A DNA stretch of 42,835 bases from Caldifarciminota bacterium. GTDB taxonomy: Bacteria; Hydrothermota; Hydrothermia; WGAB01. The notes below the pieces were generated by a model. It saw nothing but the letters and a program-made list of their open reading frames with translations. It was not told the origin of the DNA and did no database searches. Both the position numbers and the translations under genes were made by a program. The DNA lies in the NCBI GenBank assembly GCA_015490555.1, contig WFXO01000001.1, positions 1-42,835 of the forward strand, in the 5' to 3' direction. Below, in pieces: positions 1 through 8,100 of this stretch. Position 1 is the stretch's first letter. Every line of letters starts with the position of its first letter.

Positions 1-1118
1 ATTTCATTTAAAACAACACGGTTTGATCTTTCAAGTATTCTTTTAAGTAAACGATTATCTTTTGCCATATTACCAATTGACCCAACCATTACATTATCAA
101 ATTCTCTTGCCGGTAAAGGTTTTGATAAGCAAGCCGTTTTATCCCTGTGCTGTATCCTTGAGCATTTGTAATAAAAGAATTTGTCTCCATTTTTAAGAGT
201 GTAATGGGTAGTTAAATTTGATCCACAATAACCACACCTTAAAAGCCCTCTTAAAAGAAAATCATATTTGTTCTGTTTAATTGATTTACATTCCTCTTTA
301 TTTCGGTTAAGCATTCTTTGGACTTCTTCAAAAATCCTCCCGTCAATTATTGCCTCATGATTTCCTTGATAGATTTCACCACTATACTTTATTTTCCCTG
401 CATAAATGGGATTTTCTAAAATGTGCCTTGTGCTGGTATAAATAAAATCCTTTCCATTCTTTGTCTTATATCCTCTTTTGTTTAGTATCTTAACAACTTT
501 TGAAATAGAACCTTCTTTTAAGTAGGTCTCAAAAATAAATTTAATGATTTTAGCCTCTTGAGGATTGATGATAAGTTTTTTATTTTCTGGATCATAGTCA
601 TAACCCAGAGGTAAACAACCACCATTCCATAATCCCTTTTTAGCTCTTGCTTTCATTTTATCTCTTGTTCTTTCTGCTGTCATTTCCCTTTCAAACTGTG
701 CAAAGTCAAGCATTATGCTTCTTAAAAGTCTTCCCATTGCGTTGGTAGTGTCAAATTTCTGGGTTACGGCTACAAGTTCAACATTGTATTTATCAAAAAA
801 TTCAATTAAGTAATAAAAATCCTTGTGACTCCTTGTTAAGCGGTCAATCTTATAAACAAGGACAACATCAATTAAGCCCTTTCTTATATCCCTTAACATT
901 CTTTGAAGTTCTGGTCTATTTAAAGAAGCAGCGGAGAAGCCCGCATCTTCATAAATACCAAAAAGTTCCCAGCCCTCAAACTTTCGGCTTTTTAGAAAAT
1001 TCAAAATATGCTCTTTCTGGGATTCAAGAGAACTATAATCTTTTTCAGCCTGATTTTCCGTTGAAACCCTTGTATAGACCGCACACCTGACAACTTCTTT
1101 TTTCTTATTCTTTTTCAT
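1..1118 (-). CDS. Large serine recombinase, N-terminal ~372 codons (runs off left edge)
   Basis: This reading frame is absent from the ORF track because it has no stop inside the window; I translated it by hand. It opens with a serine-recombinase catalytic domain (AVYTRVSTENQ, nucleophile Ser19 from the ATG at 1118; DVVLVYKIDRLTRS; DFAQFEREMTAERTRD), then a Recombinase domain (GYDYDPENKK, LENPIYAGKIKY) and a zinc ribbon (RCGYCGSNL ... YYKCSRI ... TAC). It stops at the edge just after the ribbon, before the usual C-terminal coiled coil. The start overlaps the PIN gene end; an in-frame ATG six bases upstream is an alternative. It is the last gene of the vapB-TIR-TM-PIN operon. Such enzymes integrate, excise or invert DNA between att sites. 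The missing C-terminal part is found on the other strand at about 3.0 kb. Family assignment is firm; whether the gene is intact to the left is unknown. Confidence 0.93.
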   Translation of the reverse strand, partial: MKKNKKKEVVRCAVYTRVSTENQAEKDYSSLESQKEHILNFLKSRKFEGWELFGIYEDAGFSAASLNRPELQRMLRDIRKGLIDVVLVYKIDRLTRSHKDFYYLIEFFDKYNVELVAVTQKFDTTNAMGRLLRSIMLDFAQFEREMTAERTRDKMKARAKKGLWNGGCLPLGYDYDPENKKLIINPQEAKIIKFIFETYLKEGSISKVVKILNKRGYKTKNGKDFIYTSTRHILENPIYAGKIKYSGEIYQGNHEAIIDGRIFEEVQRMLNRNKEECKSIKQNKYDFLLRGLLRCGYCGSNLTTHYTLKNGDKFFYYKCSRIQHRDKTACLSKPLPAREFDNVMVGSIGNMAKDNRLLKRILERSNRVVLNE

Positions 1119-1491
1119 CTTCATAGACTTTTACACCTTTGCTCTTTTTAACTTCTTTATTTTTGGTCAAGATTTTTAAGTTTTTCCTTTGGCTTAAAGC
1201 ACAAAGTAAGCCTAACTCAATAGACAACCCTTTAAACTCAAAGACAATTTTACTTGCTTTTATCCAGTCTTCTTTTTCTATATCTACATAAGGTAAAGCA
1301 AGAAAACCTTTTAAAAGTTTCTCAAAGATTTCTTTGTCTTTAACATCACTGAGGACATTGGCAATAGTGTATCCCGTCACCCCTATATTGTTCTCCTTCA
1401 ATAAAGTTTCTAAGATCTCCGTTTCATTTGTATGCTTTCCCTCAAAATAATCTTTCCATGTCTTTATATCAGTTAGTATCATTTTATTCAT
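1105..1491 (-). CDS. VapC-like PIN domain protein with degenerate active site
   Basis: A 128-residue protein that follows the VapC pattern along its length: MILTDIKTWKDYFEG matches the MILVDTSVWIDFFRG-type start, then VTGYTIANVLSDV, LPYVDI, and a C-terminal KILTKNKEV. VapC toxins are Mg-dependent ribonucleases using four acidic residues. Here the first Asp (D8) is kept, but the Glu of the AEVL motif reads Asn (N45), the Asp of the helix normally reading DALIAA is Leu/Gly (ELGLLCAL), and the TRDRDF-like Asp pair is NKE. So at least two of four acids look lost. Its start overlaps the preceding membrane-protein stop (ATGA) and its end overlaps the recombinase start. Its natural partner, a VapB-like RHH protein, is three genes upstream rather than adjacent. 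It may be a non-catalytic PIN recruited to the module; ordinary toxin activity seems unlikely but is untested. Confidence 0.75.
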   Translation of the reverse strand: MNKMILTDIKTWKDYFEGKHTNETEILETLLKENNIGVTGYTIANVLSDVKDKEIFEKLLKGFLALPYVDIEKEDWIKASKIVFEFKGLSIELGLLCALSQRKNLKILTKNKEVKKSKGVKVYEDEKE

Positions 1492-2126
1492 TTCCCGATT
1501 GCTAACTCTTTTAGAATTTTTCTATATTCTATTAGTTTCCTATTTACTTCTTGCATTTCATTTATCAATTTTTCATATTCAGGGTATTTCTGTTGAATCT
1601 CTTGCGGTGGAAGTCCTTTATTTTCTTCTTTCTCGATTTCTTCTGTGTACCATTTTCTAAATTTTGCCTGCCATTTCGTTAAATGAGGGCGTAATCCTTC
1701 ATTTAGTACTTCTACAGCAATTCTTACAATAGTTCGGGTGCTCTCATTTTTTCTCACCTTTGAAATAGGTATCTCTTTTACCAACTCTCTTGTTATCCTA
1801 AAAAATTCATACCAAGAATTGTAAATTTCTACAATTACATCGTTTTTAAAATCAATTGGTAATCCTATTTTTCTAGTAGATAGTTCAACCCATAACTTGT
1901 AAGCAATCTGCATATCATCGTAATTTGGTTTTATTTTTATCTTATGATTTCCTATTCCTATTATAGCTTCGTTTATCTCGTAAGATTTTGCTCCAATTCC
2001 TCTATTTTTTAATATAACAATTAATAGCCAAATCACTAAGGCACCAGCGATTAGTAATACCAACCATTTACTTAAAACTATTTGAATATCCCAATTTTGA
2101 TTTAAGAACAGTCGTATAATTTCCAT
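1488..2126 (-). CDS. Single-pass membrane protein partnered with TIR gene
   Basis: A 212-residue protein with one hydrophobic segment near the N-terminus (about residues 18-40, SKWLVLLIAGALVIWLLIVIL) and a predicted cytosolic, charged helical remainder. Segments that look conserved-type rather than random include ITRELVKEIPISKVR, TIVRIAVEVLNEGLRPHLTKWQAKFRKWY and a C-terminal EYEKLINEMQEVNRKLIEYRKIL helix. I do not recognise a named domain, although I recall similar proteins beside DUF1863 TIR genes. The gene begins two bases after the TIR stop and overlaps the PIN start, so the products are almost certainly made together. By analogy with TIR systems in which a nucleotide signal activates a membrane effector, this could be the effector, but that is inference from position and topology only. 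Confidence 0.8.
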   Translation of the reverse strand: MEIIRLFLNQNWDIQIVLSKWLVLLIAGALVIWLLIVILKNRGIGAKSYEINEAIIGIGNHKIKIKPNYDDMQIAYKLWVELSTRKIGLPIDFKNDVIVEIYNSWYEFFRITRELVKEIPISKVRKNESTRTIVRIAVEVLNEGLRPHLTKWQAKFRKWYTEEIEKEENKGLPPQEIQQKYPEYEKLINEMQEVNRKLIEYRKILKELAIGK

Positions 2127-2128
2127 AT

Positions 2129-2683
2129 TTATTCACACCTATTATATCTAAATTGAGGAAGTGAATTATCTATTAAATCAGCCTTATCTATTCTTGCCTT
2201 AAAGGCTTCTTCTATCCACTTCTTAATTTTGCGCTCGTCTTCTGTCCAATCGTAAAATTTAGCATATCCTGATCTGATATTAGCTACTAATCTCGGAGGA
2301 ACAATGTCAGGATTAAATTTATCCTTACCATAGTCAGGATGTGTAGGTAAACATAAGCCCAATAATCCTGAATATCCACCAACTTTTTTCATCAACGCCG
2401 CAGATATTTCCCAATCTACATGTTTCCGGCAGTAAGTTTTAGGACCAACTAATACCACTAATACCGATATATCTGAGATGTAATCTTCTTGTATTAGTCT
2501 TTTTATATATTCAGTGCTAACATCAGTATCTATATCGCCAGGCTTTACTGATCTGTTTATAAAAAGATGTCCAAATAATTCTTCAAAACGATTTCTATAA
2601 TATTCATCCTCTTTATGATAATAACTGATAAAAACCTTATGGCGTGTGTCTTTTTTGGATTCGAAAAGGTAATTCCAGCTCAT
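2129..2683 (-). CDS. TIR-like protein, ThsB/DUF1863 (MTH538) family
   Basis: A 184-residue protein with a TIR-like fold of the DUF1863/ThsB type: HKVFISYYHKED at the first strand, FINRSVKPGDIDTD, STEYIKRLIQEDYISD, SVLVVLVGPKTYCRKHVDWEI (Glu92 of the WE pair is where TIR NADases carry their catalytic Glu), then GGYSGLLGLCLPTHPDYG and a C-terminal YDWTEDERKIKKWIEEAF. In Thoeris, ThsB proteins of this superfamily sense phage and make a NAD-derived signal for a separate effector. No ThsA-like SLOG or macro effector is present; instead a membrane protein follows two bases downstream. The ATG overlaps the vapB-like stop (ATGA), and GGAGGAG inside the end of that gene serves as ribosome site, so translation is coupled to the antitoxin-like gene. 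Defence function is inferred; family membership is confident. Confidence 0.9.
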   Translation of the reverse strand: MSWNYLFESKKDTRHKVFISYYHKEDEYYRNRFEELFGHLFINRSVKPGDIDTDVSTEYIKRLIQEDYISDISVLVVLVGPKTYCRKHVDWEISAALMKKVGGYSGLLGLCLPTHPDYGKDKFNPDIVPPRLVANIRSGYAKFYDWTEDERKIKKWIEEAFKARIDKADLIDNSLPQFRYNRCE

Positions 2684-2877
2684 TTTATCTCCTCCTTAAA
2701 ATTAATTTTACCTTTAAGAGATAATAAAGTTTCCTTTTGTTTCATTCTTACAAACTCCCTACAAGCAACATTAACAGCCCTGCTTTTCTTTTTCTCTCCT
2801 GTAATCCTCAATAGCTCATCAAGTAGGTCTCTATCCATTGAGACCGTGAATCTTAAAATTTCTTTTTTATCTCTCAT
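2680..2877 (-). CDS. VapB-like ribbon-helix-helix antitoxin/repressor
   Basis: A 65-residue protein (MRDKKEILRFTVSMDRDLLDELL...) with an N-terminal RHH strand, the helix pair RDLLDELLRITG / KSRAVNVACREFVRMK, and the C-terminal LSLKGKINF typical of the VapB group whose partners are PIN toxins (DUF2191-like). The ORF track begins at 2949, but that start lies at or before the likely promoter; the ATG at 2877 fits the promoter at 2921-2949 and gives the standard family length. It heads the operon and overlaps the TIR gene by four bases. RHH proteins bind short palindromes as autorepressors; TATACACTATA at 2910-2920, over the predicted transcript start, is a candidate site. Unusually, a TIR gene and a membrane gene stand between this vapB and the vapC-like gene. 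Confidence 0.82.
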   Translation of the reverse strand: MRDKKEILRFTVSMDRDLLDELLRITGEKKKSRAVNVACREFVRMKQKETLLSLKGKINFKEEIK

Positions 2878-2920
2878 GTTGTGCAACCTTCCATAATTTT
2901 GTCCTTTCATATACACTATA

Positions 2921-2949
2921 AATATACTCCTAAAAGATGCATTTGTCAA
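2921..2949 (-). promoter_or_regulatory. Sigma70-type promoter of the TIR/recombinase operon
   Basis: Read on the minus strand: TTGACA (2949-2944), a 17-base spacer, then TATATT (2926-2921). The predicted transcript begins near 2914, about 37 bases before the ATG at 2877. The near-palindrome TATACACTATA (2910-2920) covers the start and could be where the RHH protein represses. This promoter would drive all five overlapped genes. Confidence 0.7.
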
Positions 2950-2978
2950 GTAGTATTTTCACCAAATATATGGCTTAG

Positions 2979-3017
2979 TTTTGTGATTTACAAAATGACC
3001 CCATATTGTAATTACAA
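2979..3017. repeat. Paired palindromes at island junction
   Basis: Two close palindromes with related arms: TTTTGT-gattt-ACAAAA (2979-2995) and the perfect 12-mer TTGTAATTACAA (3006-3017). They sit exactly between the upstream region of the operon and the point where recombinase C-terminal coding sequence begins on the plus strand. They could be recombinase crossover sites, RHH or other operators, or chance in AT-rich DNA. Confidence 0.45.
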
Positions 3018-3379
3018 ACCCGCCGATAGAGGTAAGGGAAGAAGTCAATAAGCGGTCAAAGGAAAAGGAAGAATTAGAGAAAAAACTTGAAGAAATAAGG
3101 CTTAAAATAAGGAGAAAGGAAAGCACGGTCATTGATTTTGAAGTGATAAAGAAAGGATTTGAAGGATTTTATAAGGTGTATCCTTCTCTTGAGCCAAAGG
3201 AAAGGCAGGCACTGGCAAGGCTTTTTATAAAAGAGGCAAAAATCTTAAATGATAAGGTAGATGTTGAATTTCTTGAATTTCCAGAACTTGCCCATCAGGA
3301 GCCTGTCCAGATTTTGAAAGAGCCGTCAATTAGGGGAGCTCCTTATATGCCATCCCTGGATACTTCGTGTACATCTTAA
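2999..3379 (+). pseudogene. Detached C-terminal part of a large serine recombinase
   Basis: The open frame begins after a TGA at 2996. It encodes IEVREEVNKRSKEKEELEKKL and onward: a charged coiled coil followed by FEVIKKGFEGFYKVYPSLEPKERQALARLFIKE and a C-terminal VDVEFLEFPEL, the normal end of large serine recombinases of this class. There is no catalytic domain, no plausible start, and upstream DNA belongs to the divergent operon. It takes up the protein almost where the minus-strand recombinase meets the window edge, so the two look like halves of one gene separated by an inversion, or this is a remnant of a second copy. The last residues (from about 3335) are probably flanking DNA, since composition changes there and a GIY-YIG frame begins. 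The ORF track shows only the part after an internal ATG. Confidence 0.85.
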
Positions 3380-3558
3380 AGTCTGTTCATCACGACCAAT
3401 ACTACATCGGTTCCTCTCGCAACCCTGAAACAAGGTTGACGTTTTATAACACGGTTGAAAAAGGTTTCACCTCAAGATACAGGCCGTGGAAAATCGTCTG
3501 GGAAAAAGGAGTTCTCAAGCGAATCCATAGTGACTCAAGAATTGTGTTTGGGTTATGA
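3367..3558 (+). pseudogene. GIY-YIG nuclease-domain gene, broken
   Basis: Translation from a GTG gives VYILKSVHHDQYYIGSSRNPETRL ... GFTSRYRPWKIVWEKG, a clear GIY-YIG domain of the short UPF0213-like type. After WEKG the frame leaves the family pattern (expected is a stretch such as EFxSKxEAxxxEKxIKxWKS); the neighbouring frame reads EFSSESIVTQEL, so a one-base frameshift is likely. The N-terminus is also abnormal: PGYF precedes VYILKS in frame but the only nearby ATG (3347) is in another frame. It lies exactly where AT-rich island DNA gives way to GC-richer chromosome. A gene damaged at both ends at the island border is the best reading. Confidence 0.75.
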
Positions 3559-4582: not shown

Positions 4583-4951
4583 GGCCATACCCACGATCTT
4601 TCCCAAATCTTTTCCGCAATCTCTTCTCGTCGTTCCTTTTTGTATGATGGCTTCCTCTCCTTGTCCTCCGGAATTGCCTTTTACCCCTAAACACAATGCC
4701 CGATGCACGACCAGGCAGGAGGTGTTTCCTGGTGGGGAGAGCCTTTTATCAAGATTTTCCGGACACGGCTTCCTGGACCCTTCTGCATGTGGTTCGACCA
4801 AGAAAGAAATGGGGAGATCTTTGATAAACCCGAGACTTAAACCCGGATTCTCGTTGTACAGATCTCGCTTCAAAGATTCACTAGACACCTCACGTAGGAC
4901 GTTCCCTAAGCCCATCTTCCGCAACAAAGGGATGCGCCGAGACCATCTGTT
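4583..4951. other. Intergenic stretch without a supported gene
   Basis: Several ORFs cross this stretch in both directions (for example 4568-4927 minus with a TTG start, and 4500-5042 plus), but none has a ribosome site or a recognisable protein pattern, and they shadow each other. I see only a minor direct repeat AAACCCG (twice within about 13 bases near 4830). Gene remnants cannot be excluded. Confidence 0.4.
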
Positions 4952-5170
4952 CTACAATTCCTCAAGGTCAACAGAGTCCACTGGGTCGGGGGCGTCCGGG
5001 ATCATCCCTGGTGGAGACTCAAGGAACCTCCGCAATGTCTGAAGGAGGGTGTCGGAGGAGCGGAACACCCATCGCCGGAGCCCTTTTTCACGAGGGCCAG
5101 CAATCTGCAGGGTGAACCGCTCCTCATCCCCGACCCGAACCTGCTCAATCACATAGATACGACGGAACAT
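4952..5170 (-). CDS. Small hypothetical protein, translationally coupled
   Basis: A 72-residue protein, MFRRIYVIEQVRVGDEERF..., not recognised. It has an antiparallel-strand-like first half (VIEQVRVGDEERFTLQIAG, RRWVFRSSDTLLQTLRRFLES) and an acidic proline-containing tail. The ATG at 5170 overlaps the stop of the large upstream gene (TGATG), which supports it as real and co-translated with the secreted propeller protein; the ORF-track start at 5206 lies inside that gene. No signal peptide, so it is probably cytoplasmic. Function unknown. Confidence 0.55.
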   Translation of the reverse strand: MFRRIYVIEQVRVGDEERFTLQIAGPREKGLRRWVFRSSDTLLQTLRRFLESPPGMIPDAPDPVDSVDLEEL

Positions 5171-8100
5171 CAAGCACCCCGGGATAGAAAGACCTTCCGG
5201 AACCACACCTGCCGGCCTGTTTCTATTCGAATCAAGTAGAGCCCAGCAGGCAGGTGAGGTTCGATCCGCCAGATCCGAATGCCCGGCTCCAGGTGCCGCT
5301 GCCAGGTCCGGACCCTTCTCCCGGTCACATCATAAAGATGCACACCGACGGATATGGGTTCCGGCAAAGCAAAACGGAAACTCAAAACTCCGGATGTGCT
5401 CCACAGACCCAGAAGTCGTAGAGATGTGACCGTTGGTGAATTCTCCTGTACAGAGACGATGGCAAAGGTGAGGGTATCGCTCGTCGAAGAGTTCCCAGCA
5501 ATGTCCACCGCCCGAACGAAATACCCGACCAGGGCGACCCCAGGGAGTTCGGGGATCTCACCTTCCCAAAAGCCGTCTCCCGGGAACATCATTACGGAAT
5601 CCCAGGGAAGGGTATCAGCCTGATAAAGAAGCCACACTTCGGCGATCCCACTGAGCGAATCATGAACCCATGCGTGAACCGGCCAGGGACCGAAGAACCC
5701 TGTGGTGTCGGTCCAGTGCGTGAGGGAATCGACAGACGGCGGGGTGAGGTCTAAGCCAAAGGAGTCCGGCCCGGCCCATGCCGAGGTGTGGCCTGCCATG
5801 TCAAAGGCCTGGACTCGCCACAGATATCGGCCCTCTCCCAGATCCAGAGTTGCCGTGTTCGTGTCCACCGTATCGGTGATCACCACAGTGCTCTCCTGCA
5901 AGACCTGAATCACGTAACGCACCGGAGCCGCAAGCACGGTGGGCACCCGGGAAACAAAGGAAACAGGGCTCCACAGGAAGGTCACGGGTGTCACATTCCG
6001 CCAGGTGCCGCCCACCGGTTCTTCGAGTACCGGTGTGATCGGCCCTGTGGTGTCCACCTCAAAGGTGATGGGCGTGGAGAAGTCTCCCCGGTAGCCCTCA
6101 GCGGAGACCGCCTGAATCCGTAAGTAGTACCGGCTCTCCGCAAGATTGACAAGCAGCATTGTGGTATCCGGAGTGTTCAAAGAATCTACAAGGTTCTCAA
6201 AGTCCGGATCCAGGGCCAATTCAAGGGTATAGGCGACCGCGCCGTTCGAGGCATTCCAGATCACAACGACCGAATCAGATCCAAGATAACTTCCGTCCGG
6301 TGGCCACAGGACCTGGGGCGGGTCCGGCGCTGCAGCAACCCATCCCGTATGAAAGATCAAGGGTACGGCCTCTCCCTGAAGATCCCAGGCCTCACACGGC
6401 CAGCGGGAGTAGATCGTCAAAGAGTCCCCCGGCTCGACCAGATCATAGAAGTGGAGGAAGAGGGTCCCCAACGTGTCCGTAGCCGGGGGAAGTGCGTCGG
6501 TGACACTCTGGATGGTGATTTCAATCGTACTCCCCGTGCTATTGACGGTCATCGTGAAGCCAGGGGACAGGGACCACTGGACTGAATCTAACAACATGTA
6601 GGATGCTTTGAATTGGATGTGGAGTGCGGCCACACTGTCCTGGGGATGGGCCAGCACGATGGGGAGCCGAACCTCATAATCAACCGACGCGGTATCCCCC
6701 AGAACCCAGAGGTCGGCACGAGGTCTCCGAAACCCGAAATACTCAAAATTGTACTGGGCCGTAGCCAAAACCCAAGTTTCTCCTCCTACGGCCAAATCCG
6801 CCGCTCCTGCCGGATTCCGAAATCTGTAGAACCCCGCAAGGAGAGGCTCTTGAGGGTTGGAGACATCCAGCACATAGAGGGTCATGTAGGGAGGCCCATC
6901 TGCGTGGAAGAAAAGATACGGCGCCACAAAGGTGAGTCCTCGAGCCCCATGTTCCCAGTACAGCGGGAAGGTACTGAGTTTTTGAGGGCTCAACGGGTTC
7001 CTCATATCGAGGATATACACCGAATCTTCCAGTCCGACGAAGACGAGAGAATCCCCGGTCGCCACACTGAGGGCTGGATAGGGATACGTCGTCAGCAAGA
7101 CCGGGGACGTCGTATCTGAGATATCCCACACTTCAAGCGAGATTCCGTGCGCCACAAAGAGAAGGTTGTCCTGGCAGGCGATATCTTCAGCACCCAGGCC
7201 CGAGATGCTCTGCACGATGTCTGGATTGTGAGGATCCGAGACGTCCACAATCTGCAGGCCCTGAGTACCAAAGGCGTAAAGATACCGGCCCAAGGGAAGA
7301 AGATGTGTGATATGGTCATTCAATGGGATCTGGCCGATGGGCGGGCCGAAGAGACTCTCGGGATGGAAGATGTAAAGGGTGCTATTCCATCCCCCTGAGG
7401 TGGCAAAGAGATAAGGTGGGAGGGTTCCCCAGGCCACCGCAGCCGTTGGACCCACCTGGCCGTTGGTTCCGATATTTCGAGTGGTTACCGAATCAGCAAT
7501 GCTCAAGAACCACAGGCCAGGGCCATCTGTGATGGCGACCAGGGTGTCGTGGATCGCTATCTTTTCGGACTGAGAGGTGTAGAGCCCACCGCAGATCCCC
7601 ACTGGCATCAGGATCCCTGCGGAATCCCGGATGATCCGGAGGGCATACAAACCGCCACTGGTCAGATACACCCAGGGCCCTGAAACGATCAGATCGGCCT
7701 TCTCTGGGACAGCAGAAACCCGAAGGGTCTCCTGGAGGGAGGGGTGGGCAGGATCGGAAAGACTCAGCCGGACCAAAAACTCCGGTGCATAGGGTCCTCC
7801 ACTGAGCGCGTAGAGTCCCGCAGAGGTGGCAAAGAGGCGATAGAACGAACCCAGGGGATACATGGGGGCCAGGGTGTCCACCACCGCAGGCTGGCTCGGA
7901 TCGGAGAGGTCCACGGACAAAATCACCGACGTGGTAGCATACGCATAAGACCCGTAAACGGTGACATCGTAGATCATCTGGCCCGGACGGACAACCGCTA
8001 CCTCCTGGGGTTGGGCGGGATCGCTAAGATCAATGATGTGGAGTCCCTGACGGTCCGCCACAAGGAGGTGGTCAACGTCGTAAAAGAGGGCCTCTTTGGG

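Follow-up and report, generated by a model that had tools for sequence, protein, structure and literature searches.

The 42,835-nucleotide stretch of DNA of a Caldifarciminota bacterium analysed here (the window) raises the question of why genes for a TIR protein and a membrane protein lie between those of a VapB-like and a VapC-like protein, and whether the four genes constitute a single system.

The cassette and its Leptospiraceae copy

Five genes on the reverse strand are located at the positions, and in the order, given in the original prediction. They encode an RHH (VapB-like) protein of 65 residues (2680..2877, with a possible in-frame start further upstream), a 184-residue ThsB-type TIR protein with a catalytic-type Glu92 in the motif VDWE (2129..2683), a 212-residue one-pass membrane protein from an unnamed family of TIR partners (1488..2126), a 128-residue, catalytically degenerate VapC-like PIN protein (1105..1491), and the N-terminal 372 residues of a large serine recombinase (1..1118), the gene of which is truncated at base 1, where the contig ends. 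The open reading frames of the first four are intact. The recombinase contains the domains Resolvase (PF00239), Recombinase (PF07508), and Zn-ribbon (PF13408), which supports the identity proposed for it. The stop codon of the RHH gene and the start codon of the TIR gene share the ATGA at 2680–2683, a 4-nucleotide overlap, and a second overlap of 4 nucleotides (1488–1491) joins the membrane-protein stop to the PIN start, so that both of the predicted couplings are present. The PIN and recombinase genes overlap by 14 nucleotides, or by 20 if the recombinase ATG at 1124 is used. The claim that all five genes overlap holds for these three junctions but not for the fourth, where the TIR and membrane-protein genes are 2 nucleotides apart.

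A predicted sigma-70-like promoter on the same strand (TTGACA-17-TATATT, 2921..2949), which matches the consensus at 11 of 12 positions, is located upstream of the RHH gene. It is preceded by inverted repeats (2968..3011, no strand assigned), possibly an operator or a remnant recombination site, and by a C-terminal fragment of a serine recombinase on the forward strand (3026..3345), which reads away from the cassette. The G+C content of the cassette, which spans the first 3.4 kb, is 32.7%, as opposed to 55.6% in the remaining window. Therefore, the cassette is either foreign to this organism or joined to the remaining sequence in a chimeric contig. No further copies of the cassette were found in the same genome.

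The RHH, PIN, and recombinase genes accompany the TIR–membrane pair in one other locus only, L024 from Leptospiraceae bacterium KatS3mg129 (a MAG), which matches positions 919–3339 of the window at 93% identity. The C-terminal recombinase fragment forms the right edge of the shared segment, and L024 contains the sole other copy of this fragment that was found. The promoter (2949–2921) is conserved in L024 and the inverted repeats are mostly the same; the TIR gene is broken by a 5-nucleotide deletion, and the recombinase is truncated. The TIR and membrane-protein genes of the two copies differ at 26 of 388 third positions (6.7%), whereas the differences amount to 23 of 60 in the RHH gene (38%, Fisher p 6e-10 against the pair) and 24 of 128 in the PIN gene (19%, Fisher p 2e-4 against the pair), approximately 3 to 6 times the divergence of the pair. 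The two copies of the TIR–membrane pair therefore share a later common origin than the genes on either side, and the histories of the pair and its flanks differ.

The N-terminal part of the recombinase (1–1118) and the C-terminal fragment (3026–3345) look complementary and read outward, as if the segment had been inverted, and L024 has the same junction. An inversion by the recombinase was considered, and no full-length relative joining the N-terminal part to the C-terminal fragment was found. In L024, AAGGGGAG is found at each edge of the shared segment, and the copy (4792–7208) sits among restriction-modification-type methyltransferase genes. In the window, the edge of the cassette meets the gene of a GIY-YIG protein (3345–3558) at the very start of the gene; the insertion may have deprived this gene of its own start codon. 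On contig C72 of the same genome (L087), a 16S rRNA match ends at model position 873, with weak fragments beyond it; the break is a contig end, an intron, or an assembly fault.

The TIR protein and its membrane partner

The TIR protein matches the ThsB_TIR family (Pfam PF08937) with 64.5 bits against a cut-off of 21.2. Its AlphaFold2 model, which rests on an alignment of 21 partner TIRs, has a pLDDT of 86.8. The best matches of the model in the PDB are the ThsB structures 8wcf and 9b7d, closely followed by 6lhy, and the fold is best matched by EcThsB, the ThsB–Tad3 complex, and further structures of ThsB or TIR proteins. The protein is thus of the ThsB type, as had been proposed, and Glu92, the importance of which had been guessed, is unchanged in all 21 aligned partner TIRs. 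A comparison of sequences with the PDB returned no convincing relative. The genome (2.16 Mb) contains only one ThsB_TIR gene; therefore, chance adjacency to the partner is negligible.

The membrane protein contains a single hydrophobic segment, and its model (pLDDT 89.5) has a transmembrane helix at residues 20–41, in agreement with the predicted one-pass topology. An outer β-hairpin precedes the helix, which leads through a flexible linker to a second hairpin and a cytosolic helical bundle. Conservation within the family lies in the cytosolic domain and not in the transmembrane helix. Residues Thr84, Arg85, Ser104, Phe109, and Arg113, the motif LNxGLRPxL, and Trp159 are among those invariant in the A3 alignment of 40 relatives. 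Neither the single protein nor the 40-member family has a convincing match in Pfam or PADLOC, and no convincing sequence relative was found in the PDB. Foldseek searches of the PDB and the viral library gave no match to the model at E ≤ 0.001, and in these searches the helical domain does not match the fold of any known nucleotide-binding domain. The membrane protein therefore founds an unnamed family that has no match by Pfam, PADLOC, PDB, or Foldseek.

A single scan of GTDB genomes identified 63 loci of the partner family in more than ten phyla, one of them archaeal. The loci belong to Bacillota, Bacteroidota, alpha- and gammaproteobacteria, Spirochaetota, Leptospiraceae, Acidobacteriota, Opitutia, Chlorobiaceae, Izimaplasma, many cyanobacteria, and one Methanosarcinaceae archaeon. 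A TIR domain is encoded within 1 kb on the same strand in approximately 59 of the 63 loci by our own count, which includes L056 solely on account of a degenerate TIR fragment; the others are L019, in which the TIR gene is divergent, L037, L051, and L066. The iterated TIR HMM drifted, and some of its 99 matches were false; therefore, the identity of selected key neighbours was confirmed with Pfam. The neighbours of the TIR and membrane-protein genes are thus not random. Their adjacency is conserved across dozens of genomes, and the membrane protein is a true partner of the TIR protein, as the original prediction had assumed. The distances among TIR proteins and among partners are correlated (Mantel r 0.57, p 0.0002, 23 loci), with shared ancestry not fully removed from this value.

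A reverse search with the TIR alignment alone found eight viral contigs, six of which encode the partner within approximately 120 bp. Scans of viral contigs with the single protein and with A2 did not find the partner that the TIR alignment did, nor was it found by tblastn in phage records. Among 198 other genomes related to that of the window, the only relative of the membrane protein is one weak match of 60 residues. On plasmids of Enterobacteriaceae, a partner with two transmembrane segments was found by profile beside a TIR protein, and this pair is present in 19 of 5,426 complete E. coli genomes, in every case on a plasmid. Plasmid loci also occur in Aureispira, Niallia, Photobacterium, and Streptomyces. 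In the Enterobacteriaceae plasmid locus L012 (4007–5369), the convergent genes of the TIR protein and the two-segment partner adjoin Tn3 transposition genes; the E. coli plasmid NZ_CP026403 is an example of this convergent pair.

The partner family occurs in three recurring settings. The first, as in the window, consists of a ThsB-type TIR protein and a membrane protein. In the second, members of the same membrane-partner family accompany a shorter TIR protein and Nmad2 together with MazG_C or HMUDK_hel genes; these unnamed clusters differ from the window by the length of the TIR protein and by their nucleotide-modification-type genes, which the window lacks. Short TIR/Nmad2/MazG_C and/or HMUDK_hel clusters are found in L015, L016, L018, L020, L022, L023, L026, L028, L030, L033, L041, and L043, and it is possible that they constitute a TIR system sensing modified nucleotides. 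The third setting is found in cyanobacteria (L058–L077), where a soluble partner is encoded directly upstream of a TIR_2 domain fused to a GUN4, dynamin, HD-CE/HATPase, or methyltransferase domain.

In Thoeris, ThsB acts through a separate effector, and in type II the signal His-ADPR causes TM-macro ThsA to oligomerise, which perturbs membranes (PMC12847820, PMC11204291). Type IV, as cited in PMC12847820 and PMC13373217, combines a TIR protein with a caspase-like protease. As in type II, the ThsB-type TIR protein of the window is accompanied by a protein that has a membrane anchor and a cytosolic domain. The window shares with type I (ThsB and SIR2-SLOG ThsA) and with type IV a TIR gene beside a separate gene for a putative effector. 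The catalytic Glu and the placement of both genes in one operon are also as expected for Thoeris. However, the partner in the window is composed of one transmembrane helix and a helical bundle and contains no macro domain according to Pfam and fold searches, and its family has no SIR2, SLOG, or caspase-like domain. No ThsA of a described type (SIR2-SLOG, TM-macro, or caspase-like) adjoins the TIR gene, which agrees with the predicted absence of a ThsA-like effector; genome-wide searches with STALD and ThsA_Macro gave no matches, and the control searches were likewise silent. The partner differs from the effectors of Thoeris types I, II, and IV as described in PMC11204291, PMC12847820, and PMC13373217. 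No description of type III was found in a literature search that covered mostly papers available without subscription, and the TIR–membrane pair may be identical with that type or may already be named in the literature. The TIR protein matches the model of the PADLOC candidate PDC-M50B with 35 bits, but its membrane partner matches no PADLOC model.

The TIR protein, which is of an NAD-cleaving type, and the membrane protein together resemble an alarm-and-effector unit against viruses that is as yet uncharacterised. Upon phage infection, the TIR protein would use NAD+ to produce an ADP-ribose-type signal. The cytosolic domain of the partner, with Thr84-Arg85, Arg113, LNxGLRPxL, and Trp159, would receive the signal and cluster, and the transmembrane helices of the clustered partners would damage the inner membrane, so that the infected cell is stopped. 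The strongest doubt about this signal-to-membrane mechanism comes from the soluble partners. An N-terminal hydrophobic segment is present in nearly all full-length members outside the cyanobacteria, but soluble homologues occur in cyanobacteria, Photobacterium, and one viral contig. Because of them, not all members of the family can act by membrane damage, and the partner may control the TIR protein instead. The TIR protein would then be the effector, acting as an NADase, and the partner would regulate or sense, and hold, activate, or anchor it, at the membrane if transmembrane segments are present, so that no diffusible signal would be needed. We regard this alternative as tenable, with a minority share of our confidence. 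It is consistent with the cyanobacterial TIR_2 fusions, in which the TIR protein seems to be the main actor, and with the tether of the partner, which varies across the family from none to one to two transmembrane segments. However, the standalone ThsB-type TIR proteins resemble the signal-making ThsB, which in Thoeris relies on a separate effector.

The RHH and PIN genes

The RHH reading frame scores 22.9 bits against PF09957 (VapB_antitoxin), borderline under the cut-off of 23.4, and is 35–40% identical to antitoxins of adjacent vapB-vapC pairs. The PIN protein has a weak match to the Pfam PIN family (E 0.017) and scores 37.4 bits against the NCBIfam VapC model, the cut-off of which is 80. 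Judged against intact relatives, it retains the first catalytic Asp and has lost the Glu, the central Asp, and the last Asp in both the window and L024; the predicted degeneracy is thus real, with three of the four catalytic acids missing. No convincing sequence relatives of the PIN protein were found in the PDB, and those in the same phylum and around G199 are distant, with the exception of L024. The dN/dS between the window and L024 is approximately 0.10 for the PIN protein, 0.11 for the RHH protein, and 0.12 for the membrane protein. Because the PIN protein has lost its catalytic acids and yet has such a low dN/dS, it is probably kept for something other than RNA cleavage. VapBC pairs autoregulate, and by analogy the simplest role for the PIN protein would be that of a co-repressor with the RHH protein.

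Adjacent pairs homologous to the RHH and PIN genes, with intact PIN motifs, are present in the same phylum (L079, L081). Unlike in these pairs, the RHH and PIN genes of the window are 1.2 kb apart, with the TIR and membrane-protein genes between them, and the PIN active site is lost. Therefore, it is fair to describe the arrangement as a vapBC pair opened by the module. The further proposal that the RHH and PIN proteins are parts of the system was not upheld. They co-occur with the TIR–membrane pair in one of the 63 loci according to tblastn, namely in L024, which is a near-copy of the cassette. The 74 genes that surround the pair in 25 other loci belong most often to further TIR and resolvase families, and neither VapB nor PIN is among the 25 most frequent families listed. 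The RHH and PIN genes are a local addition around the pair. A single obligatory four-gene system, with the RHH protein as antitoxin or repressor and the PIN protein as accessory or sensor, would fit the coupled gene starts, the purifying selection on both proteins (omega approximately 0.1), and the dead active site common to both copies, but the rarity of this association and the greater third-position divergence of the RHH and PIN genes make it improbable. It is very improbable that the cassette genes are functionless passengers on a decaying serine-recombinase element in these hosts, as might be read from the damaged TIR and recombinase genes of L024, the recombinase fragment at the right edge, and the location of the cassette at the end of a contig, accompanied by a jump in G+C content, since the four open reading frames in the window are intact, those compared are under purifying selection, and the pair is conserved across great distances.

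A proposed TIR module under a repurposed regulator

The best explanation, which we give an even prospect of being correct, is that the TIR and membrane proteins form a two-gene Thoeris-like TIR immune module with an unclassified membrane partner, placed locally under a repurposed vapB/vapC regulator. In the lineage of the window, the pair would sit within a former vapB-vapC operon, and expression of the pair would probably be kept low by the RHH protein, with the catalytically inactive PIN protein as its co-repressor. More tentatively, we speculate that the helical domain of the partner is an undescribed universal TIR-partner domain, which may be tethered or not, and which serves ThsB-type TIR proteins, those of the Nmad2/MazG_C clusters, and those fused to GUN4, dynamin, or HD-CE domains. 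It would either receive a signal made by the TIR protein or directly switch TIR enzymes, and the dead VapBC pair would be its dedicated repressor in the lineage of the window.

TIR-based alarms are a link between the immunity of bacteria, plants, and animals, and the described types of Thoeris are each defined by the target that their signal switches on. The partner family, which has neither a name nor a fold match, accompanies TIR genes in more than ten phyla and also on plasmids of E. coli, which makes the pair directly testable. As a receiver of the product of the TIR protein, the partner would represent an additional class of effectors, perhaps with an additional signal; as a switch of the TIR protein itself, it would represent an additional mechanism of control. 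The wrapping of the pair by the RHH and dead PIN genes would, if true, represent a toxin–antitoxin pair turned into the regulator of an immune operon.
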